Part shown: piece after piece, positions 5,061-51,363 of the stretch
Numbering within the stretch: position 1 is the stretch's first letter
How the letters are laid out: each line of letters opens with the position of its first letter
From: Desulfobacteraceae bacterium Eth-SRB2
GTDB taxonomy: Bacteria; Desulfobacterota; Desulfobacteria; Desulfobacterales; UBA11574
Reading direction: 5' to 3'
NCBI GenBank assembly: GCA_004193595.1
Contig: RPGQ01000001.1
Location: 124,001-188,000, forward strand
Length of the DNA: 64,000 nt
Program-made: the position numbers and the translations under genes
Notes under the pieces: model-generated
Seen by the model: the letters and a program-made list of their open reading frames with translations, nothing else
What the model was told of the DNA's origin: nothing
The model's database searches: none

Positions 5061-8000
5061 TTATGGAGGGGAAGAGGTTTCCTTTGGAATCGAAACAGCA
5101 GGAACAGGAATTTTGGGTTGCTGATCTTCTTTATTATCAACCGCAGACGCTTTTTTCTTTTTAGCAGGCTTGGTTATTTTATTAAAAACAATAATTGCCC
5201 TGTCTTTGTATTTCTTTAAACCGTTAAGAGCCCTCTGTGCTTGGGCTTTGCTTTTGAAAGAACCCGTCCTTATTTTGTACCATTTGCTTTTTCCGGGAGA
5301 CATTACCGTAACATAATATGCCGAATATCCTTCATTTTTAAGTTCTGTAATTATTTTGTCGACAAACTTTTTATTCTTAAGGGATTCCACCTGAATTGCC
5401 CAACTTCCACTTGAACCGGACTTTTTGTCCAAAACAGCTGCGCTGCTTTTTGGAGGTGACTTTGTTTTCCGAGTCTTGTCCCTTTCCTTTTTTATGAAAG
5501 TGTAAGTTCCGGTCGCCGTTGGGCTTGGGGCCTGGCCGGACTTGAAAGCCTTTGACTTAATCGTTGTTGTTTTTTCCATAAGAACGGGTGATGAAACAAC
5601 CGGTACAGGCAGGGACGGCGCATAAGTAATTTTTATGGAATCACTCGCCAGTTTTCCGTTCTGATCCTCTGCAGCAATGGTAATCGTATTCACCCCTTTA
5701 GTTAAGGATACTTTGAATGTCCATTCTTCTGATGTGCCCGTATTCTCAGCCCCTGTGTTGCATGTCACATTTTTTAGCCCAACGTCTTTTGAATGGATCA
5801 CCTGCCCTGAAACAATGATCCAGGATTGGGATGTCGTGGATTCCGCTACCGTTGCAGGACGTTGTATTATTACAACCGGCTTCGTACTATCCTTGACTTG
5901 GTATGCATAAGCACCGGTTTCGCTCCCATATCCGAGAACATCACGCGCCGTAACTTTGTAATAAACAGTTCCGGTTTTCTGCGGCGGAATTGTTACTCTA
6001 TAATCAAGACCGGTGGAATACATGGGGATTAATTTCCATGAATTTCCTGCATTTATTGAATAAAGCAAAAAAGCAGACTGAACACCCGATGTGTCCCTAA
6101 TATACACATTTGCCGTAACCGGATCACTTGAAAAGGGTTTTGTTGTCGACAAATACGGTTCTGTTATTACAGGTCTGTCATATACAAATAGGGTAACCCC
6201 GTTAACAAGGTCAGATGAATTGCCTGTCTTATCAAAGGCATAAAAATCCACGGAATGTAATCCTTCCCCGGCTTTGGATGAATCCCACGAGTTTCCAAAC
6301 ACCCCGTCCCCGGGCTTTTTATCCGAGTGTTCGCCATCATCATAGAGCTGAACCGTTGCCAACGTATTGCCGGCCGGGAGCCGAATTATAGCCGTCACTT
6401 TTGACGTGTCGATACCTGAATCTCCATCATAAGTACAGACAGAAAATTTGATTTTTGTCCCTTTTAAACCCATGCCTGCATCAACATAGGGCTGTATTAG
6501 AACCGGCGGTATGGAATCGGCTAATCGTGTAACGGACATCCTATAAGATGACTTATTTTTTATTCGGTTTCGTGCCTGGATTAAAATTTGGTTCCGTCCC
6601 TCGGCCAGAGAAACCGTTCGGGTAAAAAAACCTTGGGGCGAAAGGGACAATGATGCCGGCACACCATCATTGACGAAAACAGAAGCTGACCGGATACCGT
6701 GAGGATCTGAAATTTTTCCGGCGATTTTAACGGAAGAAGATATATAGGAACTGCCGCTTTGAGGAGTGGAAATCTGAATTTTCGGACCGTTGACATTAAA
6801 ATCATCAAAGACGTATATCTGTCCTCCGGCCGCCAGCATAGAGCCGTCAGGGCTCCAACGAACATGGTGCACCGGATCTTTGTTATAATATTCGATTCCA
6901 TACGTATCTGTATTACACACAATCAGGCCATTATCGTGCCCCACAGCCAGCCGGGAAGAATCCCTGTTGTAATCTAAAGAATTGACGTTTCCAAGTTTAG
7001 GAAGATCAAAACCGCTTTTGCTCCAGTTGGAAGTGTCAAAGGTATAAATCATACCCGTATCGCCGGAACCGGATCCTACTGAAAGATATTCTCCATCATT
7101 GCTCCATGCAAGGCACTTGAGTTTTCCCGTAGGAATTGACTCAACTTTCATCGTTTTTATGGGAGAAGTCCTCTCTGTATCCCATATCCTCAACTCTCCA
7201 TACTTGTCCACTGCGGCAAATTGAGATTTGTTAACCGGGTTAAACCTGAGTTCCTGAATTTCAGCCTTATGACTGAAAGTCATCTTAAGTTTGCCTGACG
7301 TCGACCATTTTTTTATCATGTTGTCGTCCCGGATTGAATAAATGGAGTTGTCCTGCCAGCCCAAAGATTTATCCGCTGTTTTTGCCTCGCCATCCGTAGC
7401 AATATCCCATACCTTATCCAGTTTTCCGCCGGGAACTTTTAAAACGGCAATTTTATCTTTACCTTTAAAAACGCCGGTTGCCAGTTTTCCGCCGTCCGGG
7501 GAAAAGAGAAACGAATAATATTTGCCTGAACGTCTTTTTTTAGACCAAACTTTTGTCCAGCCAGATATTCGGTATATGGACAATCCGGAACCGTTTCTGT
7601 GCCTGAACGCAAAATATCCGTTTGAAGACCATTCACACCATTCGGTAGCTCTCCCCAACTTTTTCCACGGAAGAAATTGGGTTCCGTCATATCCTCCGAG
7701 CACAAAAGTTCCGGTTCCCGAAACGCCCGTCGGGGTATGGGTTACCGTAACACTCACTTCTTGTGATTCTGATGACTCCACGGTAAAAACGCCACCGGCC
7801 TTACCTCTATTGTTTGTCTTGCGATCGGGTCCTTTTGTCCAGGTACACTGGGCAGACGGCTTTAAACGCCACTTAACTGCCTGGTTCGATGCAGGTTTTT
7901 TATCAGTAAAATTTTTTACATAAGATTTTACCTTAAAAGAATTATTGCCGGCCGGGTGGAATTCAAAGGTTATACTTACGGCCGGTGAAGTGCAGGTTAA

Positions 8001-9674
8001 GGGAATTGAAGCACCAGGGCCGTAAGGCGAGATAGCCGTAATAATAGCATTGCCGCTGGAATCAGGGGTAAAACTAATCTTTGCCTGACCCATAGCATCG
8101 GTAACCGCTTCGCCATTTGGCGGTGTAAAAAATCCCGGAAATCCGGTACGAAATAAAATTGTTTGGCCGGGTAGCGGTCTTCCGTTATTATCTTTTAACC
8201 AGGCAGCAATTGTCGCAGAGTTGTTCTGTCCGATAGCAAGGGTTTTGGGTTTAGCTTCTGCAGTCAATTGAATGATGGAAGCTCTATCCACCCGAAAGGA
8301 GCCGTTCAGGGCCTGCTGCCATTTTCCTTTCTCATCAGCCGCCTTAAATTCATAATAGTGTGCCCCAACATCCAAGTTCGTAAGGCCGTAGTAGGAGAAA
8401 ATCTTTACCGCTTTTGGATCGGCCGACGGCACGAAAAATTTGTGAAGTTGTGTGCCGTCAATGAAAAGGTTTACCGAGGCATATGGTTTGCTGTCAATTC
8501 CTGAAAATATCGCCACGAGATTGTATATATCATCAGGAGCCCCGGATGATGGGGTTACGCGGCTTACTGCCGGTACTGATAGAGAATTTTTTGAAAAATG
8601 AAAGTCTTTTATTATGATATCCGGTGCTTCTTGGGTTATGACAATCACTTCGTTAATGTTCTGGTCGCTTTTAGGATTATGTGCAGTGATGTTATAAATA
8701 CCCGGCTGAGTTCGCCATAGGGAATAGACTCCGTTAATATCGGTGGTAACCGAAAAACTTCCATCCATTGTAGCAACAACAGCATCGGAAACCGGGGTGC
8801 CGTCAGTACCTTTTATCATGCCATACAGTGTTTTTGTGCCCGGGAAAAATTTTTGGACAATTCTCTTTTTATCGAATAAGGTTAGATCCCGAACACCCGG
8901 GTTGGCAATATCATCCATCCCCCCCAGCAAAACCTTTCCATTTTTATTTTCCTGAAAACAGCGCACCTGGTTTTTGCACATCATTGAAGCATTGTTTTTG
9001 CCGCATTCAGGCGATTGCACCCACCCCTGTGCGTCTTCGTCAGGATACCCGCAAAAACCGAGGGCGTGGCCGATCTCCTGCGCGGCGACTCTGATCAAAT
9101 CTCTTTGAGCCTGGCTGAAATCAACCTTGTCTTTATCCAATACAAAAAACCATGGCTCTGTTTTGCCCTGCTCATCCTTTATATGAAAAAAGATTCTCGC
9201 TCTGTAATCCTTATCCGCATCAGCCGCTTCACTTATTGCAGGATACTTACAGCGTGTATTGCAATTTTCAAATAAGGTATAACTATATGCTTCCGGAAGA
9301 TATTCGGAGAATAGACCGATATCACCGTGTTCGTCCAGACACAGCCTATCGCCATGTCTTACGACCCGGGGACCTTGTTTGGACCATCCTTCAAAAATGA
9401 TATCCGCTTCTTTTGGGTTGCTTGCAGGGGCAAATACCATATTCCCACCGCTGGCATTTTCCCATATCTTACAGGCCATATCCATGGCTTCTTTTGCTGT
9501 TACCAAATCAGGATCTTTATCTACACCCAAGGGATTCTCTCCATGATAAAAGCCGTCTGAAAAAAAATACTTAAATTCAACACCCTTGTTTGCCATAGTA
9601 GAACCGGCATCAAAAAAAATAAGTGTCAAAACGATCAATAACACATGGGTTGTTTTTGACATGGGTATCTTCAT
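5061..9674 (-). CDS. Giant secreted protein: degenerate matrixin-like, Ig-like, WD40-like and SPOR domains
   Basis: About 1,537 residues from the preferred ATG at 9674, which opens a signal peptide (MKIPMSKTTH, then LLIVLTLIFF). A longer frame starts at 9722; neither start has a clear ribosome-binding site. The order is: a metzincin/matrixin-like region carrying QEIGHALGF where active enzymes have HExxH, so the first zinc histidine is a glutamine and the third is absent; a carboxypeptidase-regulatory-like domain (LYGMIKGTDGTPVSDAVV); two invasin-type Ig-like domains; WD40-like repeats (roughly 670-980); more Ig-like modules; and a C-terminal SPOR domain (WAIQVESLKN, WYKIRTGSF). SPOR domains bind denuded peptidoglycan. 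Likely a periplasmic or envelope scaffold rather than a protease. It lies 55 bp after the MerR-like gene, probably one transcript. Confidence 0.8.
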   Translation of the reverse strand: MKIPMSKTTHVLLIVLTLIFFDAGSTMANKGVEFKYFFSDGFYHGENPLGVDKDPDLVTAKEAMDMACKIWENASGGNMVFAPASNPKEADIIFEGWSKQGPRVVRHGDRLCLDEHGDIGLFSEYLPEAYSYTLFENCNTRCKYPAISEAADADKDYRARIFFHIKDEQGKTEPWFFVLDKDKVDFSQAQRDLIRVAAQEIGHALGFCGYPDEDAQGWVQSPECGKNNASMMCKNQVRCFQENKNGKVLLGGMDDIANPGVRDLTLFDKKRIVQKFFPGTKTLYGMIKGTDGTPVSDAVVATMDGSFSVTTDINGVYSLWRTQPGIYNITAHNPKSDQNINEVIVITQEAPDIIIKDFHFSKNSLSVPAVSRVTPSSGAPDDIYNLVAIFSGIDSKPYASVNLFIDGTQLHKFFVPSADPKAVKIFSYYGLTNLDVGAHYYEFKAADEKGKWQQALNGSFRVDRASIIQLTAEAKPKTLAIGQNNSATIAAWLKDNNGRPLPGQTILFRTGFPGFFTPPNGEAVTDAMGQAKISFTPDSSGNAIITAISPYGPGASIPLTCTSPAVSITFEFHPAGNNSFKVKSYVKNFTDKKPASNQAVKWRLKPSAQCTWTKGPDRKTNNRGKAGGVFTVESSESQEVSVTVTHTPTGVSGTGTFVLGGYDGTQFLPWKKLGRATEWCEWSSNGYFAFRHRNGSGLSIYRISGWTKVWSKKRRSGKYYSFLFSPDGGKLATGVFKGKDKIAVLKVPGGKLDKVWDIATDGEAKTADKSLGWQDNSIYSIRDDNMIKKWSTSGKLKMTFSHKAEIQELRFNPVNKSQFAAVDKYGELRIWDTERTSPIKTMKVESIPTGKLKCLAWSNDGEYLSVGSGSGDTGMIYTFDTSNWSKSGFDLPKLGNVNSLDYNRDSSRLAVGHDNGLIVCNTDTYGIEYYNKDPVHHVRWSPDGSMLAAGGQIYVFDDFNVNGPKIQISTPQSGSSYISSSVKIAGKISDPHGIRSASVFVNDGVPASLSLSPQGFFTRTVSLAEGRNQILIQARNRIKNKSSYRMSVTRLADSIPPVLIQPYVDAGMGLKGTKIKFSVCTYDGDSGIDTSKVTAIIRLPAGNTLATVQLYDDGEHSDKKPGDGVFGNSWDSSKAGEGLHSVDFYAFDKTGNSSDLVNGVTLFVYDRPVITEPYLSTTKPFSSDPVTANVYIRDTSGVQSAFLLYSINAGNSWKLIPMYSTGLDYRVTIPPQKTGTVYYKVTARDVLGYGSETGAYAYQVKDSTKPVVIIQRPATVAESTTSQSWIIVSGQVIHSKDVGLKNVTCNTGAENTGTSEEWTFKVSLTKGVNTITIAAEDQNGKLASDSIKITYAPSLPVPVVSSPVLMEKTTTIKSKAFKSGQAPSPTATGTYTFIKKERDKTRKTKSPPKSSAAVLDKKSGSSGSWAIQVESLKNKKFVDKIITELKNEGYSAYYVTVMSPGKSKWYKIRTGSFKSKAQAQRALNGLKKYKDRAIIVFNKITKPAKKKKASAVDNKEDQQPKIPVPAVSIPKETSSPP

Positions 9675-9776
9675 ATAAAAACAGTTACGCAACATATTTG
9701 AATTCGGCGGGATAAAAACCAAAGGGGAAAGTACGAGCGTTGCGGATGAGGGTATTTTGGCTTTGAAATATCCGTG

Positions 9777-11789
9777 CTATTGACCATAGTTAAGCCGCTT
9801 TACCAGGTATGAATCACCGCTTGTAATAAGCTCCATGGAGATACTGCCGCTGGTTTCCTCCCATGTCCCTTGATCCAAAAGAAAGCGGGTGAAATATTTT
9901 CCGTTTATTCTAATGTTTCCCGTATCATTCTGAAAAGAATAATCAACCAGTTCAATCCGGTAGTTATAGGATTTGATGTTTTCCATGTTTTTTTGATAGT
10001 TCGGCAGCATGTCCTGAAAAGGAGTGTTGTTTTCAGTGGCATCAGGAGTAAAAAGGCCGGCAAATTTGTCAAGATCTTTACTTTCATATGCCCGACAATA
10101 GATACGCAAAAAGGATTCCAAACGATCTTTCCGGTCTTGTTGAGAAATAGTTTTTTCTTTGGAGGCCAACATCTCTTTATCTTTTTCCGGTTTAGATGGT
10201 TTACTCTCCTCAACAACGCCGGGACGTTCTGCTTTAGGCTCTTCTATCATTGAATTATCTATTTCAGCGGTAACTAAAGGCTCTTTAATATCCGATTCCG
10301 CTACCGTGACTTCCTTTACTTCAACTTCCGAAGCCTGCAAGTTCGACAGGCTGACGGTTTCCTGTTTTTCAGGGGTAGGAGGTGTCTTAGGAAGAATCGG
10401 AGCAACCGTGGCAACAGACGTCGCATGCACATCTTTTTTAATTTCAACCGAGTTAACTTCACCTACAGCCACTTCTTGCTTCTCGACTTTAGGCTTTGCA
10501 ACGGATGACGTTACGGCTTTTTCGGCAGCGGCCTTCTCAGCGGCGGCCTTCTCGGCAGCAGCTTTCTCGGCGGCAGCCTTCTCAGCGGCGGCCTTCTCAG
10601 CAGCGGCCTTTTCGGCAGTAGCCTTTTCAGCAGCGGCCTTCTCGGCAGCAGCCTTTTCAGCAGCAGCCTTCTCGGCGGTAGTCTTTTCAGCAGCGGCCTT
10701 CTCAACGGCAGCCTTTTCGGCAGAAGTCTTATCAGCGGCGGCCTTTTCGGCGGTAGTCTTTTCAGCAGCGGCTTTTTCGGCACCAGGTTTCTCAACAATA
10801 AATGTTTTCGGTAGGGTCTTTTTCTCTTCTTTAACTTCTAAAGGTTGTTTTTCCGGCGGGCTGACAATTTCCTGTTTTATAGGGGTAGGAGATATCTTAG
10901 CGGGAACCGGAGAAATTTTAGAAGTGGTCTCCGAGACTAATTTGTTCGATAAAACAGCCGATTCAGCTTGATCTTTGGGAAGCTTCCGGCCGACCGATTC
11001 CCTTGATTCCTCTGTTAACTCCTGCTGTGAAACTAGAGTTGATGCAGACGGCTCGGGGGGGATAGGGGTCAGACCTTTGGGGTCGCCGGTATTGTCTATG
11101 GGTACACGATCATGATACACGGGCTGTGTTTCTGTTTCGCTCCGATCCTTTTGGACCAAATATGTGGTTTCAGTAGATGTGGTTTCAGTCTTTTTTTTAC
11201 TGGCCTGAAAATAAAAAAAGCCCCCGATGATGAGAACTATCGCCAATCCGGCAGTATATATGGGTATCATCCGGACCGGTTGCCGCCCGGGTCTTCTCTC
11301 AACCTCGGGTTTTATTTTTTCAACCGGTTTGCGCACTTTATCTTGTATAAGGGGTTTTGCTGCAGATTCATCTGAAGTTTCAAACGTTATGTCTTTAATC
11401 TCTTTTATATATTCACGCAGCAGTTTAATCTCATTTATGATGCTGGTTCTTTGATGAAAACTCATCTCATTTCGGCGCTTATCGAGTTTCTCGATCATTC
11501 CCTCCGCGTATTCCAAGCCTTTTTTGATCTGGTCCATTTCGTTCAGACCCGCATCAGGTATACCGATCAATTCGACAATTTGATCCTGAGAGTAACCGAT
11601 GAGCACATAATGAAAAATTATTTTTAACCGTGCACGATCATACCTACTGTAAATGCGACGGTTCAATTTAGTTATCTGGGGCGATATGAGCCCTTTTTCC
11701 TCGCAAAAACGGATATGACGTTTACTGATGTCAAACTCTTTGGCAAGTTCAGATATTGCAAAATGTTTTTTTGCATTTTTCATTTTCAT
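9777..11789 (-). CDS. Membrane-anchored MerR-type protein with EKAAA repeats and NTF2-like end
   Basis: About 670 residues from ATG 11789 (a GTG one codon upstream is less likely). The N-terminus is a MerR-like winged helix ([20 protein letters not shown]), followed by a coiled-coil stretch. A transmembrane helix follows near 175-195 ([16 protein letters not shown]). Then comes a long charged region with about 15 EKAAA-type repeats resembling the TolA stalk, and a C-terminal NTF2/SnoaL-like domain ([20 protein letters not shown]). The layout suggests a cytoplasmic DNA-binding head and a periplasmic stalk and sensor or binding end, in one polypeptide. It precedes the SPOR protein gene in the same direction, so joint action at the envelope is plausible. 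Function unproven. Confidence 0.8.
10515..10790 (-). repeat. 15-bp-periodic repeat encoding EKAAA units
   Basis: Imperfect 15-base units (reverse complement of GCGGCCTTCTCGGCA and variants) encode the alanine-rich stalk of the MerR-like protein. The open frames on the other strand here are by-products of this repeat. Confidence 0.9.
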
Positions 11790-26203: not shown

Positions 26204-27195
26204 TCCAAGCCCGGCGGAGTTCGTTTATTAGGAATTCCGACCGTGTTAGACAGGGTGATCCAACAAGCGGTGGCCCAGGTGCTTAACAGAATCTGGGATC
26301 ATATCTTCTCCGAGTATAGCTTGGGGTTCCGCCCGAAGCGCTCACAGCATGACGCTATTCGCAAATACCGTGAATATGTGGAATCCGGACTGCGGTATGT
26401 AATTGACATTGATTTGGCAAAATTTTTCGACCGAGTGAACCATGATAGGCTTATGGCTCGATTGGCTACGAAAATAACTGACAAGCGGGTGTTGAAACTC
26501 ATCCGCAGTTTCCTGAATTCCGGTGTCATGATTGCCGGCCTTGAGAAGGCGACAAAAGAAGGTACTCCCCAAGGTGGGCCACTTTCGCCGATTTTAAGTA
26601 ATATCGTTCTTGACGAACTTGATAAAGAGCTTGAAAAGCGTGGACTGTGCTTTGTCCGTTATGCAGACGACTGTGTCATCTTTGTCGGAAGCAAGCGGGC
26701 AGGGGACCGAGTAATGGAAAGTGTCAGCCGTTTTATCGAAAAGAAATTACGGCTGGAGGTAAACCGGGAAAAAAGCGCCGTAGGTCGCCCGTGGGAACGC
26801 AAGTACCTGGGATTTTGCCTGACGAATTCACGCAAGAATCCCAAGATCCGTATCCACTGGAAAACGATCAAACGGTTTAAACAGCGGGTACGTGAAATCA
26901 CGGCCCGCCGCCGTGGGCGAAGTCTTTCTCAGGTGATCAATGAACTAAATCAGTTCATGAGCGGATGGTGGAACTATTATGGATTGACCGAATCGTTCAA
27001 CCGCTTACGTCCATTGCCACATTGGATCAGGCGCCGTCTTCGGGCGTTGGTCTGGAAGCATTGGAAGAACCGCAAAACCCGTGTGGGTCAACTCCTGAAA
27101 AGAGGAGTGTCCCGAAACTATGCCGTGACCACAGGCTGTGCCCGTAAAGGCCCCTGGCGTATGAGCAAAGTAAAGTGGGTTAATAAGAACCAGAT
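26204..27195 (+). pseudogene. Internal fragment of a group II intron reverse transcriptase/maturase
   Basis: Homology starts at SKPGGVRLLGIPTVLDRVIQ, past the normal N-terminus, and the frame has an upstream stop and only a GTG (26243) as start. The RT palm is well kept: DIDLAKFFDRVNHD, GTPQGGPLSPILSN and the catalytic YADD in VRYADDCVIF. The maturase domain is present (FMSGWWNYYGL). It then leaves the family at KGPWRMSKVKW, before the usual end, and runs into unrelated codons and the RHS remnant (to 27682). No intron RNA domains V/VI were recognised. It is clean, unlike its scrambled flanks. Confidence 0.85.
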
Positions 27196-29661
27196 CCGCT
27201 TCCCAGTAGGCCGCAGAATTTTCGACCCCTTTGGCCGATCCTGCCTGAGGCTCGCCTTACGATTGGCTCCAGCCCTTTGGAGGGTCCCTCACGGTCAATG
27301 GCATTCGTTTAAGATATGGGGCCATTCGTTTAAGGAATTACAGGGGCAAAATTATTGGCGGTGTTGCCAAGGTCTCCTTTTTCTTCTTTTTTGTAGGACG
27401 CCATTTGGATTCGGGTTTCATGACCAAATGTCCGGCGACAATCTCCTTTTTGCGAAGGCTGGACTGTCTCGCCCCATCATTTTTCAGCCCAGGGATCCTT
27501 CCATCCTATATAAAGGAGATGGCACAATAGCAACAAACATCGCGCCTCTAATTACAAGTCCAATTACATGGATGTTTGTCAGCCTGGTTGAGTCCTTAGC
27601 GGAATACCCGGAACAGCGGTTATATGGGCGACGGCGGTCAGCCATCAGAAGCACAACAATTGTCAGGGAAAATGGCTGTTGACGCTGGCGGGAATCTCTA
27701 TATTGTGGATTCTGGGGAATCATTGCATTCGTAAGATTGGATACAGACGGGATCATCACTACCGTAGCGGCAATGGCATTGCGTATCTGGCAACGATATC
27801 TTGATCAAAGCAGTCAAATGCCATGCTGTACAATCTAATAAGCGTGACGGTGGATGCTGCCGGAAACCTATATATTGCAGACCTCTTCAATTATCACTCA
27901 GAAGGTGGAATGCGGAGGCACATAACTACCGTTGGGAAGCAGCGCATGGTTTTAGCGGTGATAGTAACGGACTGGCTACCGATTACCCAGTACTCCGCAG
28001 GGCCTATTGATGCCAGCTCTTGACGGCGAAGGCGAATTTATACATTATGGAATTACGATGGGGAGATGGGTTGGCGGACTACGCATGGTGGATCCCAAAG
28101 GGGTAATCACCACAGTTTTCCTTTGGATCATTTTATATCAGCATGGCCTTTGACGGTGTCGGGAATCTATATATCTCAGATTTCAATTGGCATACCATCT
28201 GGAAAATGGATACCAGTGGCAATATCGTTCCGGTAGCCCGGCAATTTCTAAAGCGGCTTTTATAGCGGCGATGGCGGTCTGCCGTCGAGGGCCCAGTTTA
28301 ACTATCGACGGAGCGCAACCGTTGATCGACCGGAAATCTTTATATCGTGGATAGCGGCAATAAATGCGAATTTCGCAGGTAAATACAAACGGTTTTATCA
28401 CACCACGGTGGCGGGCCAAGGGGCAAACGGCTATACAAGCGAAAGGCCTCGGCAGATAGATTTGTGATTGCAAGTCCAGCCGACGTTGCCATTGATGACG
28501 CCAGTGAGCTCAAATTTCCTATCAATGCAGCACATCAAGTCCAGTAAAATCGGCCCGCTGGTTCCATATGTTTATATGAAGAGCATGGGCGCAAGAGTGT
28601 TTACTGAGAAAACGGTTTGGGGAATTACGTTGTCAACGGAACATATCGGCCAGCATTTTAAAGACTGGATCTGGACTACCGGCGCCGTGCATTACGAATT
28701 CACCTATGATAATAATAAACTTGTTGGTATCACCGACCGGTTGGCAATCGGACCAGCATTGAAGGGATGCGGGAGGCGGACCATTGCCATTGTCTCAGAG
28801 GGGACTCCACCACCACGATTACCATAGACGCCGACAGCCGTCTTACCCGCGTTACCTATCCTGATGGAAGTTTCACCACAGCTTTAGGGTATACCCGGAC
28901 GGTTTTATGACCACAAAATCGAACCGGAGGAATCGTTTTGTGCATGTTTTGATACTTCGGGCGGATTAACGGATGCAACCGATCAGGAAGGCGGGCACTG
29001 GAGCTTCAACGGGGTCATGTACGCTAACGGCGATGTTCATGCCAGGTACTCACCGGAAGGCAACCTCACGAGAAATATCTTGATGGCTATACCGACTCCG
29101 CAGCACGGTTCAACCATCACCGATCAAAGCGAAATGCAAACAGTTTACCTTTGAATTCAATTTACAGCAAGGCAAATCTCTTCCACATTGGTATGGACTT
29201 TGAATTCAAATTACGACATCGATCCGGAATATGAAGTTTAAAATATGTAAAGGAAATGGCAGAACCACTCCCTCTGTGGCCTGGAGAAAATTACAATCAA
29301 AGAGATAAAACCTACCGGGATACGGATGCGGATGATGGCTTCGGATCGATGACCAGCTCGTGACGGTTAACGGTAAGGCCACCACCCTGGTAAACTCTGT
29401 CCGCAAACCCATGGGATTACCACCTCTCTCCAAATGGAAGGACCGTCGCATCGGACTATGATCCATCGCCTGCTGACGCAGCGCGTGAATTACGCCCGGT
29501 CTTTGACACCACTTATGAATATACCATGACGGGAGGCGGCCGACAGATATTAACACCAATATCAAACATACCAACTTTTGCATTATGACGCCCATGGGTT
29601 TCAAAACTGGTACCGATGCCGAAATCACCACCACGTACACCTACGATGCAGTGGGTCGCAA

Positions 29662-30118
29662 GTCAGCTAGCTTTCATCGGATTCTAACGTATCCGCATCT
29701 CGCCAGGAAGTCAAGCAAAAAGTCGCAAACAATTGCTCCTTTCACAAAAGGTTTATTAATTCAGAGAGTTACGCTGTTGATTCGATAGGATGGGTTCTTG
29801 ATAGAGAAAAAGCGAATGCCATTGACCGTGGGCCTCCCCAAAATCCGATATAATCAGAGGCTTTTTAGTTTTATTAGTTCTCTAAAAAGCAACCCGAGAG
29901 GTGCGCCCAAACTTGGCGATGGTTGGCCTGAAACTGCTGTAAAAAGCTTTATTTGAAATAAATTTGGGTATCCGGATGTCTTTTTTCGCTAATATGAACC
30001 AGATCTCAGGTCGACGAGAGTTGTAAACTTCGGAAATTTACAAATCCTGATACAAAATCATGCCTTTACAATCCCCATAGATATTGGTATAGCAACTTGG
30101 ACCCGCATAAGCGGCTCA
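29662..30118. other. Gap between the inverted copy and the cassette region
   Basis: A short open stretch ending at a TAA near 29850 (frame reading KQKVANNCSFHKRFINSES) may be the tail of a lost gene; I do not recognise it. Inverted pieces GGCTTTTTAG/CTAAAAAGC lie near 29860-29890. Nothing else is supportable. Confidence 0.4.
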
Positions 30119-30252
30119 GTCCAACATGGTTTTATCCTTCATCCCGCTGAAGGATGATCAAAAGCTCCCTGACCCACTATCTATCACTGCTAATCTTACA
30201 ACTTTGCTCAATCCAACATGCGGGACAAAGGATAAAACCCTATACGTTAGCT
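30119..30252. other. Possible integron attC site (long type)
   Basis: GTCCAAC (30119-30125) and GTTAGCT (30246-30252) bound a 134-base palindrome. The arms GGTTTTATCCTTCATCCCGC (30128-30147) and GCGGGACAAAGGATAAAACC (30220-30239) pair at 18 of 20 bases. Length and core boxes fit a long attC site (RYYYAAC ... GTTRRRY), with one mismatch in the right core. Confidence 0.5.
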
Positions 30253-30293
30253 TTTTATAACCGATCGTAAGCTGATTTTCGCAGGGGTGCCAT

Positions 30294-30953
30294 ATGGAAA
30301 ATATAAGCAAGTTAGCCACATCAATACAAAAATTAATCTCTCCCTTTACAGAGCCTATTTTTTCTGAATTTGGTAATTATATAGCAGAAAAAATCCGTTT
30401 TGTTCGTTTTCAAAACAGCCTTAAGGTACTTGCACGGGCAAAAGATATATTACAAGAAAAAGGCCTTGATACAAAGTCTGTTGATCTTAAGGTCTTAGTT
30501 CCAATTATAGAAGGAGCGGCTCTAGAAGAAGACGATGAAATGACTGAAATTTGGGCAAAATTACTCGCTTCAGCTTCTCATGATGATAACGTTATCACAC
30601 CTTTCCCAAGAATCCTATCTGAACTAAGCCCGAAGGAAGCAAAAATACTTTCATACCTATACGATCAATGGTCGGCGGTAATTCTTATTGGAGATGGACA
30701 AATTTCTGAACCAACATGTGAGCACTTACTGGATAATTTTGATTTCAAATCGGATAAATACGGAAGTGAATTTGAATTAATCATTAACAATCTAGTAAGG
30801 CTGAGACTTATTGGTCTTGGCGGAGTTCAAATTAAGGACATAGACTCACAAAATTACGCTATTCAAAATTACCAACAAATTGTATTAACTCAGTTCGGTT
30901 GGGCTTTCATTAGAGCTTGCCAAGGTCCTGAGGCGGATGAAAAATTCAAATAA
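30294..30953 (+). CDS. Abi-alpha / DUF4393 family protein (putative abortive infection)
   Basis: The 219-residue protein matches the Abi_alpha (DUF4393) layout as I know it: an N-terminal helix with a GNYIAEKIRFVRFQNSLKVL segment, VPIIEGAALEEDDEMTEIWA with the conserved acidic run near residue 75-90, and a C-terminal helical domain. Family members are linked to phage-triggered abortive infection, though the mechanism is not established. The gene starts about 45 bases inside a presumed gene cassette and its stop lies 6 bases before an attC-like site, the packing expected of an integron cassette. Confidence 0.75.
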   Translation: MENISKLATSIQKLISPFTEPIFSEFGNYIAEKIRFVRFQNSLKVLARAKDILQEKGLDTKSVDLKVLVPIIEGAALEEDDEMTEIWAKLLASASHDDNVITPFPRILSELSPKEAKILSYLYDQWSAVILIGDGQISEPTCEHLLDNFDFKSDKYGSEFELIINNLVRLRLIGLGGVQIKDIDSQNYAIQNYQQIVLTQFGWAFIRACQGPEADEKFK

Positions 30954-30958
30954 TCATT

Positions 30959-31016
30959 AGCTAACCATTCACTGGTGCCGACCCAAAAAGCCGGGCGGCA
31001 CAGTTCAACGTTCGGC
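30959..31016. other. Probable integron attC site (short type)
   Basis: AGCTAAC (30959-30965) and GTTCGGC (31010-31016) bound a 58-base imperfect palindrome in which ACTGGTGCCG (30971-30980) pairs with CGGCACAGT, leaving one extrahelical base, as attC sites do. The left core AGCTAAC is the exact complement of GTTAGCT at 30246-30252, which is what the two ends of a single excisable cassette must show. Confidence 0.65.
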
Positions 31017-31026
31017 ATAGGAAATA

Positions 31027-31142
31027 ATGGAAACGAATCTAAAAAAAATAGAAAGAACGTCCAAGTTAAAAAAAGATGAAAACTGGGAATTCCGTGCATT
31101 TTTAAAAGGCTACGATATTCCACTCGAAGAGTTAGATTCAAT
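31027..31142 (+). pseudogene. 5' fragment of a gene cut by the IS at 31143
   Basis: The frame from ATG 31027 reads METNLKKIERTSKLKKDEN and WEFRAFLKGYDIPLEELDS, then enters the IS left end and stops at 31218. The WEFRAFLKG...EELDSI pattern recalls the start of YkgJ-like cysteine-cluster proteins. After the IS (32752 onward) a short HRVRIYSQS frame could be its continuation before a stop. It would be the second cassette gene after the attC-like site. Confidence 0.5.
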
Positions 31143-32751
31143 TGGGAGCATTACCCGTTTCTCCGCGATAATTTATGAAATTAATAGAATAAAGAGACAA
31201 AATTGCAATAAACTTTAATAATCATAATTAAAAGTTGAATATCAAGCAGGACAATAATCGCCGCTTAATATATCTCATCATGGGTAATAGAGCTTGATTT
31301 CAAAAAAGGAAATTCCATGGTCCCCAAAGCTGCGGTTATCGTCTCCGAAGATTGGAAGTCGGGTTTTTTATCATTCGTCAGTGAACGCTTAGACCAAATA
31401 GAAAAGGATTACCAAATGGAATCAATGGATGATATATCCAGAAGCCTTTTCGCAAACCGTTCTGATATCATGGGACAAGCGGCTTTGGCGTTGATCGAGA
31501 AAAAGTTCGGCCACTTGCTTGATCAACAATATTGCCAATGCCCGCATTGTCTTCGCCGAATCAAAGCCAAAACTAAAAAGGTCAAACGTGAAATACAGAT
31601 TCTCGTTGGGACCGTAACGCTGTATCGTCCCTACTTTTATTGTAATAGCTGCCAGTTCGGTTTTTATCCTATAAACGAAGCGTTAGGGCTTTCTAACCGC
31701 AAAATACAACCGGATGTCCAAGAATTAGAAGCATGGCTGGCAGCTGAGATGCCCTATGAAACCTCCTGCGAAACGCTTCAACGATGTGCCGGTATACCAG
31801 TCAGCAACCACCATATCCACGATGTTTCCAATGAAATTGCGCAAGATCTTCAGATTTTAGATGTTTGCCCCGGAAAAGAAGAAATTAAGCGTCAAATTGA
31901 CACAATATGCGAAGGTAAATTCCGCAGGCCCATCTTAATGATCGGCCTTGACGGCGCTCATGCACCGACCCGTCCCGAGCCTTCATCCAGAAAAGGGCCA
32001 AGGGGTAAAGGTGAGTGGAAAGAGGTTAAAGGGTTTCGTCTGTATCTGCTTGATAGTGAGCGCATTATCCATTTAATCAGTTGGCATCAGATTAAAAACG
32101 ACAAAGAGCTATCGGCCGATCTGTTACGCATTAAACAAACTGCTCTGATTCCTGAAGAAAAAGTACGCATCTGCGTTATCGGTGATGGTGCCCCTTGGAT
32201 ATGGAATCGCATCCAGGAGCTTTTTCCTGATGCCAAGCTGGTATTGGACTATTATCATTGCAGCCAATATTTATACGATACAGCGCATGCCCAATACGGT
32301 AAATACAGCCAAAAGGCTCAAGAGTGGGTAGAGGCGACACTTACCCGGCTATTCTCAAACAATATTGAGCAAATAATCGCTGGGATCAAACGCATGAAGC
32401 CATCATCGAATTCTGCCAAGGAACAAATCGACAAAACTATTGGATATCTTTCCGAACGTACTGACAAACTCAAGTACGGTGCATTAAAGCGTGGTGGTTA
32501 TCACATTGGTAGTGGTGGTATTGAAAGCTCCAATAAGTTTATATCCAATGCTCGCTTGAAGCGATCCGGTGCCTGGTGGTATCCGACCAATGCCAACAAC
32601 ATCTTAAAACTCCGCTGTGCTAAATACAACGGAACTTTTGATAGAATAATGGCTGAAATCAAGAAAAAAAATAAGCCAAATTATTCTCAAAAAGAACTGG
32701 GTGAACTTCGTCTCGTGGTTAACAATTCTTGAGAAACAGGTAATGCTCCCA
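31143..32751 (+). mobile_element. Intact ISKra4-type insertion sequence
   Basis: Inverted repeats of 21 bases (31143-31163 starting TGGGAGCATTACC, and 32731-32751) match at 20 positions and frame one full-length transposase gene. The element is about 1.61 kb. I see no clear target-site duplication. It interrupts the frame that starts at 31027. Confidence 0.85.
31317..32732 (+). CDS. ISKra4-family transposase
   Basis: A 471-residue transposase. The N-terminal part has zinc-finger-like pairs (CQCPHCLRRIKAK, YFYCNSCQFGFYP), followed by the family segment LSNRKIQPDVQELEAWLAAE. The catalytic core includes MIGLDGAHAPTRPEP and VCVIGDGAPWIWNRI-like sequence, then GGIESSNKFISNARLKRSG. ATG or GTG alternatives near the start are possible; the ATG at 31317 follows AAGGAAATT. 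Frame intact and end overlaps the right inverted repeat by two bases. A frameshifted relative lies at 42486-43843. Confidence 0.88.
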   Translation: MVPKAAVIVSEDWKSGFLSFVSERLDQIEKDYQMESMDDISRSLFANRSDIMGQAALALIEKKFGHLLDQQYCQCPHCLRRIKAKTKKVKREIQILVGTVTLYRPYFYCNSCQFGFYPINEALGLSNRKIQPDVQELEAWLAAEMPYETSCETLQRCAGIPVSNHHIHDVSNEIAQDLQILDVCPGKEEIKRQIDTICEGKFRRPILMIGLDGAHAPTRPEPSSRKGPRGKGEWKEVKGFRLYLLDSERIIHLISWHQIKNDKELSADLLRIKQTALIPEEKVRICVIGDGAPWIWNRIQELFPDAKLVLDYYHCSQYLYDTAHAQYGKYSQKAQEWVEATLTRLFSNNIEQIIAGIKRMKPSSNSAKEQIDKTIGYLSERTDKLKYGALKRGGYHIGSGGIESSNKFISNARLKRSGAWWYPTNANNILKLRCAKYNGTFDRIMAEIKKKNKPNYSQKELGELRLVVNNS

Positions 32752-44661: not shown

Positions 44662-47600
44662 TTAAAATAAAAATTGAACTATGGGAGATGAGAGTATCTG
44701 CGCCCCCGTCAAAAGATGATCTTCATCGGAATACGTAAAACTTCTTCCCGAAATATCCCTTAACGCATTCATCTCATAACTGCGGGTGCCGTTTGTATCA
44801 TATTGATACTCTTCAACCAGGGTGCTGTCTTTGGTTACAGTCAGAAGTCGTCCCATGGGATCGTAGGAATAAACGTAATTGGAGGTGGTGCCGTCTATTG
44901 TTTCTGTTTTGTTTGTAATTCGACCATTATTGTCACGGGCAAGATTCCATGACGTAATACCCTGCCCGCTAACGCTATAGACTTCATCCGATACCACTCC
45001 ATAGCCGTTAAACGTCCGGCTCAAGTTCAGTGATCCACCTGTCACCGCGTCCGGCAGGCCGTTTCCAGCATTACGGGTGATAGTGAAACTCCCTGCGTTG
45101 GTCAACAGATCGTCATTATCGTAGGTGTAGGCTTCGGTCGCTCCGGCATAGGCCAGCGAGGTTATATTAAAATCATCGTTATAAGTATAGCCAAGAGACT
45201 GGTTCAACGTACCGCTCAAGGTCTCGGAAGTGACGAGTTTTCCATCATATTCATACGTAATCGATTCTGTTCCCTTTGTGATCGAACCCACATTTGTGCC
45301 ACAAAGATAGGTATAATCAATATTCCCCTCCGGCGTCTGGATCTGCTCGAGTCTGCCGTTGGCATAGATGTTGTTGATCTGGTTGCCGGAAGGAAAGTTG
45401 GTCTGTTTCAGTCTCCGGTCCTTGTCATATACGTAACTGTAACTTCCGCTCAACGGGGTCTGGTAGGAACTTTTCAGATTCACCTTGTTGTACCCAAAAC
45501 CGTGATTGATGGCGGCTGGATTAGTCAGCACGGTCATGTTGCCGTTTTTGTCATAAGTAAATCCAACAAAACTTCCATCCGGTCTGCTGATGCCGACTCT
45601 GCGACCCACTGCATCGTAGGTGTACGTGGTGGTGTGATTTTCAGCATCGGTAACAGTTTTAAGAAACCCATGGGCGTCATACGTAAAAGCAGTATGTCTG
45701 ATATTGGTGTTAATATCTGTCGGCCGCCCCCTGGCGTCATATTCATAAGTGGTGTCAAAAAGACCGGGCGTACTCACGCGCTGCGTCAGCAGGGCGACGG
45801 GATCATAGTCCGATGCGACGGTCCTTCCATTTGGAGAGGTGGTAATCCTATGGGTTTGCGTGACAGAGTTTACCAGGGTGGTGGCCTTACCGTTAACCGT
45901 CACGGTTTCGGTCATCAGATCCGGAATATCATCCGCATCCGTATCCTGGTAGGTTTTATCTTTGATTGTAATTTTCTCCAGGCCAGAGGGAGTGGTTTCC
46001 GTCATTTCCTTTACATATTTAAACTTATATTCCGGATCGATGTCGTATTTGAATTCAAAGTCCATACCACAGGGAAGAGATTTGTTTGCTGTAAATTGGA
46101 ATTCGCTGTAAACTGTTTGCATTTCGGTTGGATCGGTGATGGTTGAACTGTAAGCGCCGGTGGAGTCGGTATAGTCAAGATATTTCGTGAGGTTGCCTTC
46201 TCCGGTGAGTACCTGGTTACGAACATCGCCGTTAGCGTACATGACCCTGCTGAAGCTCCAGTGCCCGCCTTCCTGATCGGTTGCATCCGTTAATCTGCCC
46301 GAAGTATCAAAAACATGCACAAAACGATTCCCCTCCGGTTCGATTTTTGTGGTCATAAAACCGTCCGGGGTATACTCAAAGCTGTAGAAACTTCCATCAG
46401 GATAGGTAACGCGGGTAAGACGGCTGTCGGCGTCTATGGTAATCGTGGTGGTGAGTCCCTCTGGAGAGACAATGGCAATGGGTCTGCCTCCCGCATCCCT
46501 TTCAATGTTGGTCTGATTGCCAAATCGGTCGGTGATACCAACAAGTTTATTATTATCGTCATAGGTGAATTCGTAATGCACGGCGCCGGTATCCAGATCC
46601 ACAGTCTTTAAATGCTGGCCGATATGTTCGTTGACAACGTACCCCAAACCGTTTTCCTCAGTAAACACTCTTGCGCCCATGCTCTTCATATAAACATATG
46701 GAACCAGCGGGCCGATTTTACTGACTTGATGTGCCGATTGATAGGAAATCTTGAGCCTACTGGCGTCATCAATGGCAACGTCGGTTGGACTTGCAATCAC
46801 AAATTCATCTGCCGGGAGGCCTTCGCTTGTATAGCCGTTTGCCCCTTGGCCCGCCACCGTGGTGATAAAACCGTTTGTATTTACCTTGCGAATGCATTTA
46901 TTGCCGCTATCCACGATATAAAGATTTCCGGTCGGATCAACGGTTATGCCTGTCGGATAGTTAAACTGGGCCTCGACGGCAGGACCGCCATCGCCGCTAA
47001 AGCCGCTTGTGAAATTGCCGGCTACCGGAACGATATTGCCACTGGTATCCATTTTCCAGATGGTATGCCAATTGAAATCTGAGATATATAGATTCCCGAC
47101 ACCGTCAAAGGTTATGCTTGGGATATAAAAATGATCCAAAGGAAAAACTGTGGTGATTACCCCTTGGGGATCCACCATGCGTAGTCCGCCAAACTCCATC
47201 TCCCCATCGTAATCTACAATGTATAAATTGCCTTCGCCGTCAAGAGCTATATCAATAGGCCCTGTGAGCATTGCATCGGTAGCCAGTCCGTTATCACCGC
47301 TAAAACCATGCGTGCCGTTTCCCGCAACGGTAGTTATAATGCCTTCCGTATTCACCTTTCTGATGCGATAATTGAAGAGGTCTGCAATATATAGGTTTCC
47401 GGCAGCATCCACCGTCACGCTATTGGGATTGTACAGCATGGCATTGACTGCCGGACCGCCATCGCCGCCGTAGCCGGCAATGCCATTGCCGGCTACGGTA
47501 GTGATGATCCCGTCTGTATCCACCTTACGAATGCAATGATTCCCAGAATCCACAATATAGAGATTCCCGCCAGCGTCAACAGCTATTTTCCCCGGACAAT

Positions 47601-50600
47601 TAAGCTGTGCTTCGATGGCCGGACCGCCGTCGCCCATATAACCGCTGGTTCCGGTTCCGGCCAAGGACTCAACCAGGCTGACAACATCCATGTAATTGGA
47701 CTTGTAATTAGAGGCGATGTTTGTTGCTATTGTGCCATCTCCTTTATATAGGATGGAAGGATCCCTCGGGCTGAAAAAATGATGGGGCGAGACAGTCCAG
47801 CCTTCTGCAAAAGGAGATTGTCGCCGGACATTTGGTCGAAAAATATTCAGTTTTTTTACATTCCAAGAAATAATCTCCTGCCTTGCCGGAATATCGTCAA
47901 CGTCATTTCCTACTTTGGCAAATGCCTTAAAATATTCCCCTGGAGTATAATAGACCGCATCATAGACAAATCCGATACTTACAAAAATTTGGTTATAGGG
48001 ATCCGAAACGATCCGCCCATAAACATCTCGTCCATCCCAATAAAATTCTGCGCTCTGATTGGGAAGTGGATCTAGGTTCTGTACCAGATTACGACCAGCT
48101 ACCTGCACTCTAACTATAATTCGTTTTAAACTGGCAGGAATTGTTTCACCGCTAGCCGGCACAGTTATGAGCGTTCCATAACCTGAAACACGATTACTGG
48201 AATAATGAAGGTTCATTTCCGTGCCTGGAATGGGAATATCTTCATGGAATACCCGGCTTCTTTCTTCAACAAAAGAACCGGTATGAGATCGACAGCATTT
48301 TTGTTCTTCGATTTGCTCGTCTACAGTTGGTATTGTTTCCGGGTTTGGGAGTATGGCATCTGAAGGCGGGCCATAGGGCCAGTTGCAGTCCAAGGGCGTA
48401 AAATGGACAACAGCCACTTTCCAGAAAGTGGAACCCGGCTGGTATTTTTCAGGATCATTTAAGCCCTTCACCTCATCGCTGAATAATCCATCTCCGTCAA
48501 GATCATTCGGCTGATTATCCCCGTTGGCATCCAAGGCATCCACAATGCCATCGGAATTCGTATCGAGAAGTTTTACCACCACGCCGTTATCCGAGGGCAC
48601 CCAGACACCTCTATCTCGATCGTAATAACCCACAGGGACAACCATTCCCACGTCGAACTCAAGGAAATTATCCACCCAAAGGATCACGGGTTTTTCAAAC
48701 CGAACCCTTTGTGCGCCATCCACACCAAGTTCCGCGCAATAAGTGTAAGCGGAAGTAGGCGGCAAAACAGCCGGCATAGACTCGAGCGTGGTATACTCGG
48801 TGGCTCGGGTGGTAATGGTGATCAGTTCATGAACATCATTACCGTTTTCATCCACCAGATAGGCATGATTGTCTCCGGTAAAAACCAAGGTTGCAGACCG
48901 ACTGCCGAATTCGTCGGTAACTTGTGTGCTCTGGTGTGTCACCAACGTGTCCGGATTCCCGTCAAAAATGATGGTTGTGGCCGCCGGGTCTTCGAAAATC
49001 ATCTGGATGGTCTCGGCAATGGGAATGTCGTTCCAAGGCACATAGACTTTCCGGTGAGCGCTGATAAACCCTTCTTTGTTATAAGCGAGGGTCAGAGTCG
49101 TTCCACCCTCAACCGGAAGGGAGAATCGACCTTCTGCATCGGTCGAGACCGTGCCGTATTCCGGATGATCGTGAAGAGTCACCGAAACATCAGAAATAGG
49201 AGAATCGTCAATGGAACGAACCAGGCCGGTGATCAATGAAAAGCGTTTGGTATCGTATTCATCCACCGTGGCATCGGTTGGAATCAGGTCTTCATATTCT
49301 TTGCCGAAAGACCCTTCGGGCAACGGTTCAGGGCTACCAACCACTGTGACAACTGCTTGTGCACTATTTGAACCCGTTGGACCGGTTACCGTGATGGTAT
49401 AGACGGTGGTATGGTCGGGATACACCGTAGTCGATCCACCCACAAACACAGTGCCAACACCATTATCGATAAAAGCGCTTTGCGCATTTATGGATGTCCA
49501 CGTTAAAGTAGAGCATTGTCCTTGTATAATAATCGAAGGATTGGCACTTATTTCTACCAGGGGCAAAACCATGTCATTAACCGTCACAACGACGCTGTTG
49601 GTGGCAGTGCCTCCAGAACCTGTAGCAGTGATTGTGTAAGTGGTTGTCGCATCAGGTGATACCTGGATGGATCCATTGACATCCACAGTACCGATATCCG
49701 GTTCGATCACACAGGTATCGGCTCCTGTCGAGCTCCATGTAAGGGTTGAGAACTCCCCTGACTGAATGTTTTCAGGATCGGCGCTTATATTTACAGTAAC
49801 AGGGGAAATATCGACCTCCACGTCGTTTACAACACCTGCCTGAATAGAAACTACCGGGCTCCAATACTGATTCCCGCCTTCATCAATTCGGAATTTAAAC
49901 GAAGTGTTCGGCAGGATAAACTCGGCTTTACCCGATTCATCCGTTGTTTCATATTTTCCAAGATAAGCGCCGGTTTCGCTGAACAGATAGAGTTTTGCAC
50001 CGGCCACATCACTCCCTGATTGAACCACATGGATAGCGGCCATGCCCTGATTTATTGTGGCTGAAGTATTCTGCCAGGTAAAGGGAGCCGACCAGAATTG
50101 CTGTCCCAGATAATCGGCCCGCACCTTGTAAGACTGCTCCGGAAGATTGAACACCACCTGACCGTTTGTGTTCGTGGTCTGTTTCCGGCTCAAATACGAA
50201 CCTGCTTCGTTGAACAGATACACCGGTATGTTTGCAATGGGTTCGATGGTTGGATAATCCCCTTGCACGGTAAGGGTCACATCCTGGTGGGCAATAGTGA
50301 GGGTCTCGGACAGGTTGCCGCTCACCGTATACACAGGGCTCCAGAACTGGTATCCCAGATAATCCACCCGGATCTTGTAAGTGCCGTCTGCCAGATTAAA
50401 AGAGACTTGACCACCGGGGTCCGTGGCATCGCTTATTCCAATGTAACTCCCGGATTCGCTGAACACATAACAGTTGACATCAGCTATAGGCACTCCCGGA
50501 CCTTTCAAAACCGTAAATGTAAAACCGCCGCCGCCGGTCAAAACACTGACCGGATTGACCTGACCGGCAATGAGTGTTGTGGAATCGCTCCAATACTGGC

Positions 50601-51363
50601 TCCCTTGATAATCGGCCCTGAACTTGTAATCACCGGCAGGAACATGAAAAGTCACCTTGCCCTCTGCATTGGTAGCACCGTTTAGGGAGAGATAGGAGCC
50701 TGACGCTGTAAATACATATACGTTCACGCCCTCCACAGGCGCGCCGGAACTGGTGACGGTAACTTCCGCGTCCGCCATGTGCATGGTCACCGTCGTGTTT
50801 TGCCAGGTAAAGGGATCCGACCAGAATTTCTGACCCAGAAAATCGGCCCGCACATTGTAAGACTGCTCCGGAAGATTAAACACCACCTGGCCGTTGGAGT
50901 CCGTGGTCTGGTTCCGGCTCAAATATGAACCCGCTTCGTTAAACAGATACACCGGTATATTGGAAATGGGCTCAGACGATGGATAATCCCCCTCAACAGT
51001 TAGGATCACATCCTGGTGGGCAATGGTGAAAGTCTCGGACAGGTTGCCGGAAACCGTATACACCGGGCTTCAGAATTTGTACCCCAGGTAATCCACCCGG
51101 ATTTTATAGGTTCCTTCGGAGAGATTAAATTCCACTTTTCCTTCTGAATCGGTGGTCTGACTTTGACCCAGATATGATCCGCTTTCGTTGAACAGATATA
51201 CCGGAGTTCCAACAATCGGATTCTGGACACTTTTCTCTACAGTCACCTGCAAGATTCCATCATCAGCGATACATATGGCTGTTGATGAAAAAATGATTGC
51301 AAAAGTTAAGACAATGATAACTCCCATGGAAAGTCTTGGTCTGGTGATTGTTTTGTGCATCAT
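44662..51363 (-). pseudogene. Giant secreted RHS/NHL-repeat protein gene broken by one TGA codon
   Basis: From ATG 51363 (GGAG 5 bases upstream) the frame encodes a signal peptide and the first FNESGSYLG repeat, then meets TGA at 51070-51072. The same frame continues from a GTG at 51063 for 2,133 residues. Homologous repeats have tryptophan (YLGYQFWSPVYTV) where this one has the stop, so TGG changed to TGA. Six such repeats are followed by two Ig-like domains, a carboxypeptidase-like domain, an RHS-like entry (WDGRD), five NHL repeats (GNLYIVDSGNHCIRKV) and YD repeats (YTYDAVGRR). The C-terminus stops at LLTGAQIL then unrelated residues, without the RHS core or toxin tip. A surface or toxin-shell protein, likely inactive. 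Confidence 0.9.

Follow-up and report, generated by a model that had tools for sequence, protein, structure and literature searches.

The window, that is, the whole 64-kb stretch of DNA that was analysed, contains an Abi_alpha gene between the remnant of an IS91-family element and a short ORF belonging to a further gene cassette, which is itself followed by a transposase gene. The features of this locus are the following:

29857..30245, + strand: 3' end remnant of an IS91-family element, 389 bp, detected by blastn and ending ...CCCTATAC at 30245
30119..30252, + strand: IS91 end imitating an attC, with GTCCAAC (R''-like), the hairpin TTTTATCC.TCATCCCGC/GCGGGAC.AAGGATAAAA and CTATAC, then GTTAGCT
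30247..31010, + strand: predicted excisable cassette, 764 bp, between two G|TT crossover points (from complementary cores)
30294..30953, + strand: Abi_alpha (PF14337) ORF, 219 aa (Pfam and PADLOC profile matches)
30959..31016, + strand: canonical attC of the Abi_alpha cassette, R'' AGCTAAC and R' GTTCGGC (covariance model)
31027..31218, + strand: 63-aa ORF of the next cassette (start GTTCGGC, 31010), of no family, its own attC missing
31317..32732, + strand: UPF0236-type transposase gene (PF06782, E 2.1e-12)

The Abi_alpha ORF is intact, starts with ATG, and is preceded by a plausible ribosome-binding site (AGGGGTG). Its product is assigned to PF14337 (Pfam, E 2.7e-27, 96.5 bits against a gathering score of 29) and also matches PDC-S47 of PADLOC (E 1e-12), while its identity to relatives is only 19-27%. 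The AlphaFold model (mean pLDDT 79) has a mostly helical fold, and a search of PDB structures with this model gave no significant match. The same Pfam family (DUF4393/PF14337) includes the Abi-alpha protein of E. faecalis prophage 6, which causes abortive infection with early (premature) lysis; that protein is prophage-borne (PMC6356687), whereas the protein of the window is integron-borne and 219 aa long. We consider 30294-30953 a probable phage-defence gene.

The attC begins six bases 3' of the Abi_alpha stop codon. Its R'' box (AGCTAAC, 30959-30965) is the exact reverse complement of the core GTTAGCT that starts the cassette (30246-30252), its R' box (GTTCGGC) lies at 31010-31016, and between the two stands ATTCACTGGTGCCGACCC..GGGCGGCACAGTTCAAC; written out, AGCTAAC is followed by CATTCACTGGTGCCGACCCAAAAAGCCGGGCGGCACAGTTCAAC and then by the terminal GTTCGGC. 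The stem has one bulged A (CCG-A-CCC against GGGCGG) and resembles those of known attCs. Sites were scored with a covariance model (R1) whose training set comprised 26 attCs taken from other genomes, the central loop being shortened in some. The training candidates came from other genomes of the order, where they adjoined integron integrases, and most were retained only if their R' exactly complemented the R'' of the site that follows; sites of the window were excluded. The model comprises 13 pairs, with both-sided changes in seven of the 12 predicted pairs and strong covariation. Its sole match in the window is 30959-31016 (34.1 bits, E 2.5e-5), with none besides up to E 10, and the same site has an E of 0.002 in a search of the whole genome. 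A strict text-pattern scan for attCs had overlooked it because its R' is GTTCGGC, and an Rfam search at the gathering threshold gave zero matches. Another palindrome tried as an attC (5398-5524) lies within a 1553-aa ORF, is unmatched by the covariance model, and was put down to chance.

A preliminary description of this DNA had read the Abi_alpha gene as a single integron cassette at 30119-31016, and had named a covariance-model search as the way to check this. Its coordinates are exact, and its reading is borne out by the match at 30959-31016, by further attC sites elsewhere in the genome, and by the complementary cores. Judged by sequence, the Abi_alpha gene is carried by a genuine integron cassette (30247-31010), whose recombination is predicted.

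The upstream site had likewise been described as attC-like. The palindrome at 30119-30252 is real (folding z-score -5.5; -23.9 kcal/mol for the bottom strand versus -20.8 for the top), but it is not an ordinary attC; it is the 3' end of an IS91-family element, which imitates attC. Against the covariance model it reaches a partial 7.3 bits, short of a canonical attC match. This genome has four copies of it, 95-100% identical, and the roughly 390 bp to its left are common to three copies (in the window and on contigs C19 and C9), the window remnant being 91-99% identical to the other two (blastn) up to 30246-30248, where similarity ends. One of the four IS91 ends in this genome is followed by GAAC, not GTT. 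Whereas the window remnant retains only the non-coding end of the element, the C19 copy has the C-terminus of an IS91 transposase upstream, in an adjoining transposase fragment. The covariance model and the repeat analysis together rule out a long canonical attC, and the IS91 transposase adjoining other copies rules out the end of a RIT element. Three adjacent tyrosine recombinase genes (RIT-like) adjoin the IS91 end of the C19 locus (L098 6880-13051), where a hipBA pair also lies between two IS91 ends of the same orientation.

Of 194 genomes of the order, 13 had related ends, and a pattern scan of GTDB contigs recovered 20, almost all of which come from MAGs of Desulfobacterales or Deltaproteobacteria. 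Their layout across genomes is GCGGCTCAGTYCAAC - TTTTATCCWTCATCCCGC - loop - GCGGGACRAYGGATAAAA - CYCTATAC, with GTT following in nearly every case. Several have an IS91-family transposase gene upstream and, farther upstream, a tyrosine recombinase gene. The transposase of full copies belongs to IS91 (NF033538, 437 bits; PF04986 and PF14319; Pfam and NCBIfam), and these copies show what defines the family, a Y2 transposase that has the IS91 zinc-binding domain and is encoded upstream of this 3' end. The best match of the recombinase is the integron integrase TIGR02249 (180.5 bits in two stretches, below the cut-off of 265). The element is about 2.68-2.71 kb long, and its left end is TTGRACTRARCCGCTNCGCGG. 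Members of the subfamily start with TTGRACT, and G|TTGRAC is complemented by the core at the opposite end, GTYCAAC; the base before the left end is G in nearly every copy and A in two views of one copy (G318). Counted over all genomes, there are 31 distinct ends. GTT follows 29 of them, and downstream of 12, including the one in the window, lies an exactly complementary R'' that has attC features. In 30 of the 31 ends, which are related and not independent, folding is better on the bottom strand, a preference expected of attC-like sites.

The clearest arrangement was found in a complete genome (G280), where each of the six full-length copies found comes directly after an attC, reading attC-G|TTGGACT on the left. 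Three of these left attCs were recognised by the model (L239, 43.7 bits; L244, 37.9 bits; L245, 51.4 bits) and three by eye (L238, L242 and L243). On the right, CTATAC|GTT is intact in four of the six copies in the fetched sequence, the L239 copy has a degraded end (L241), and the end of the L244 copy was not found in the fetched sequence; a complementary R'' follows in several copies. Four strong, intact IntI genes lie close to the IS91 copies of this genome. Since the copies follow attCs, have complementary cores, and are followed by GTT, the element sits in arrays as a cassette would: as a whole it has a start complementary to its own R'' and is placed at G|TT between an attC and the next cassette. 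Insertion inside an attC, splitting it, was rejected, as no attC half stands to the left of L147, L182, or L185, and the preceding attCs in G280 are intact. Full IS91 copies apparently behave like cassettes whose end hairpin imitates attC.

Three further observations concern these elements. A lone IS91 end lies within an array (L122, G118:C205, oriented 6889-10607), apparently in place of the attC of a cassette encoding a PhzF-like protein and a nitroreductase. At L182 (7135-7190), the IS91 end is tandemly duplicated (GGACAACGGATAAAACGCTATACGTT) ahead of the next cassette (GTTAGGT). Finally, in a sister IS91 subfamily (L194, L199, L213-L220), A and not G precedes the start TTGAACT, and two members (L194 and L199) also read CTATAC|A at the other end, suggesting that the crossover core of this subfamily is ATT, not GTT.

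We propose that a full IS91 copy acts as a cassette with the start G|TTGGACT and the end GTCCAAC-hairpin-CTATAC-G|TT. Recombination of the folded bottom strand at G|TT would be carried out by an integron integrase or, possibly, by the recombinase that the element itself encodes, and we infer that either enzyme would in this way bring in or remove the Abi_alpha cassette. The element might instead be a transposon that targets the R' box of attCs and was inserted at G|TT by its transposase, the Abi_alpha cassette being already present, in the manner of IS1111-attC elements or group IIC introns homing to attC. IS1111-attC elements and group IIC-attC introns are mobile elements tied to attC and insert inside it, whereas the IS91 element's own end replaces the attC. 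Targeting would agree with the preference of IS91 elements for GTTC/CTTG adjoining the origin end, with the location of sister subfamilies that have the same hairpin at sites other than GTTRRRY, and with the left flanks of L147, L182, and L185, which are without attC. However, complementarity between the TTGRACT start and the GTYCAAC end core is needed by cassettes and not by a targeted insertion sequence; moreover, the left-flank base is G in all checked copies of the subfamily except those of G318, the ends fold better on the bottom strand, and the element carries an IntI-like recombinase. We regard targeting as a serious possibility that probably does not hold.

Besides the window site, the covariance model finds at least 20 other attCs in this genome, for about 25 credible ones, with clusters on C16, C60, C1 (247-257 kb), C52, and C72. 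The preliminary description had also noted that no integrase is near. No integron integrase was indeed found inside the 64-kb window, but a full-length, broken one lies on the same contig, 106 kb from the Abi_alpha cassette (C1:260914-262101), with an in-frame stop after residue 123 and a second stop where the catalytic tyrosine is expected. The other integron integrase copies in this genome are fragments, and no intact one was found in this assembly. The attC array 3' of the broken intI (G000:C1:247675-262101) has the same orientation as the gene, the usual layout being divergent.

To the right of the Abi_alpha cassette, no GCCGAAC core matching the next cassette is present between 31016 and 55285. 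The transposase encoded at 31317-32732, which we take to be ISLre2-like, carries PF06782, and its gene probably truncated the array on this side. Because the second cassette has no GCCGAAC core and the transposase gene occupies the sequence from 31317, the locus is a remnant with one intact cassette. A cluster of attC sites lacking integrase (CALIN), as had been suggested, would have at least two attCs within a few kb and no intI. That suggestion is only loosely right: the window has one model-supported attC and an atypical IS91 end, and the next cassette is without a matching attC. With a single intact cassette among fragments, the locus does not qualify clearly as a CALIN.

The Abi_alpha gene could be cassette-borne but a silent, decaying passenger of what is left of a dead integron, and play no part in defence. 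In favour of this are the break in the one full-length integrase, the truncation of the array to the left and to the right, and the want of a demonstrated outward promoter. Against this stand the intact ORF with its plausible ribosome-binding site and the recurrence of the family as cassettes, and we think a silent passenger a real possibility, though less likely than not.

This recurrence is seen within the phylum. The Abi_alpha family was found in three of 116 genomes of the order and in 10 of 395 of the phylum, and six of the 11 other Abi_alpha loci have an attC context, which reinforces the cassette claim. This is far above chance, because attC clusters make up about 1% of this genome (as estimated from the covariance-model search). 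Two of these loci are Abi_alpha cassettes with exactly complementary cores (L027, GTTATGC..GCATAAC; L252, GTTAGCC..GGCTAAC), two have cores complementary at six of seven bases (L255 and L256), one lies behind chained attCs (L257), and one has its own attC (L029). No Abi_alpha relatives were found on plasmids. That the attC of the window arose by chance, as a palindrome that happens to follow an ordinary chromosomal Abi_alpha gene, is very improbable: although its R' (GTTCGGC) deviates from GTTRRRY at one position, its R''/R' pairing is poor beyond AAC/GTT, and its folding z-score taken alone is only -2.1, it is the sole match of the model in the window at E 2.5e-5, the other palindrome, at 5398-5524, is unmatched, the cores are exactly complementary, and both further attCs in the genome and other Abi_alpha cassettes exist.

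Abi_alpha is, on these data, a recurrent integron cargo in Desulfobacterota and one more family among integron-borne defences. The presence of defence genes in integrons is established (Science 2025 ads0768; Getz et al., Nat Microbiol 2025; Kieffer et al., cited in PMC12444791). The defence-gene cassettes of sedentary and mobile integrons likewise consist of a phage-defence gene as an attC cassette (PMC12444791); here, by comparison, the gene is Abi_alpha, the host belongs to the Desulfobacterales, the array is a decayed fragment without a working integrase, and the defence is predicted.

The best explanation of the locus, with a probability of about 0.85, is a real Abi_alpha cassette, the sole intact member of a small and decayed piece of an array, lying between an IS91 remnant and a truncated cassette, whose product would serve in abortive infection. 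It builds on what is directly seen, namely the anatomy, the family, the model match, and the fact that both arrangements recur elsewhere among the genomes. By analogy with E. faecalis, the Abi_alpha protein would act as an abortive-infection defence, for which we infer its expression and anti-phage activity. Points against this explanation are that neither an excised circle nor an empty site was seen, that the assembly yielded no intact integron integrase, that the IS91 end falls short of the canonical attC model, that GAAC follows one of the four copies of this end, and that the protein is distant from its relatives and its model has no significant PDB match.

A broader reading, on which we are evenly divided, is that the Desulfobacterales IS91 subfamily with the IntI-like recombinase is a self-mobile cassette that carries or traps defence cassettes such as that of Abi_alpha. 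Its end hairpin would be a second, independent kind of attC, and the element would therefore be movable both by transposition and by integrase. If true, this would link rolling-circle transposons directly with integrons and give IS91/ISCR elements a route into and out of cassette arrays. The only precedent for an IS91 element acting as a cassette is a hint from ISCR28, an IS91-like element near sul4, for which attC sites at or after its end were reported in passing, with data not displayed, and whose authors suggest passive shuffling as part of cassettes (PMC12772301). ISCR28 and the element studied here are alike in being IS91-like with an attC beside the end; no terminal-box logic was described for the former, whereas full copies of the latter have complementary cores at both ends, G|TT placement between cassettes, and an IntI-like recombinase gene. 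In the open-access literature searched, we found no account of an IS91 element whose two ends bear complementary cassette cores, and prior work may exist.

Two observations concern the sequence to the left of the locus. An ORF for a group II intron reverse transcriptase/maturase lies at 26243-27682, with roughly 2.2 kb separating it from the IS91 remnant downstream; a piece of 253 bp is 97% identical to the attC array region of C1 (L090 4501-4753), and the intron might be attC-associated. The segment 23918-29700 resembles a degenerate duplicate of portions of a 2133-aa YD-repeat/RHS-like protein encoded at 44662-51063, with which it shares peptide stretches.
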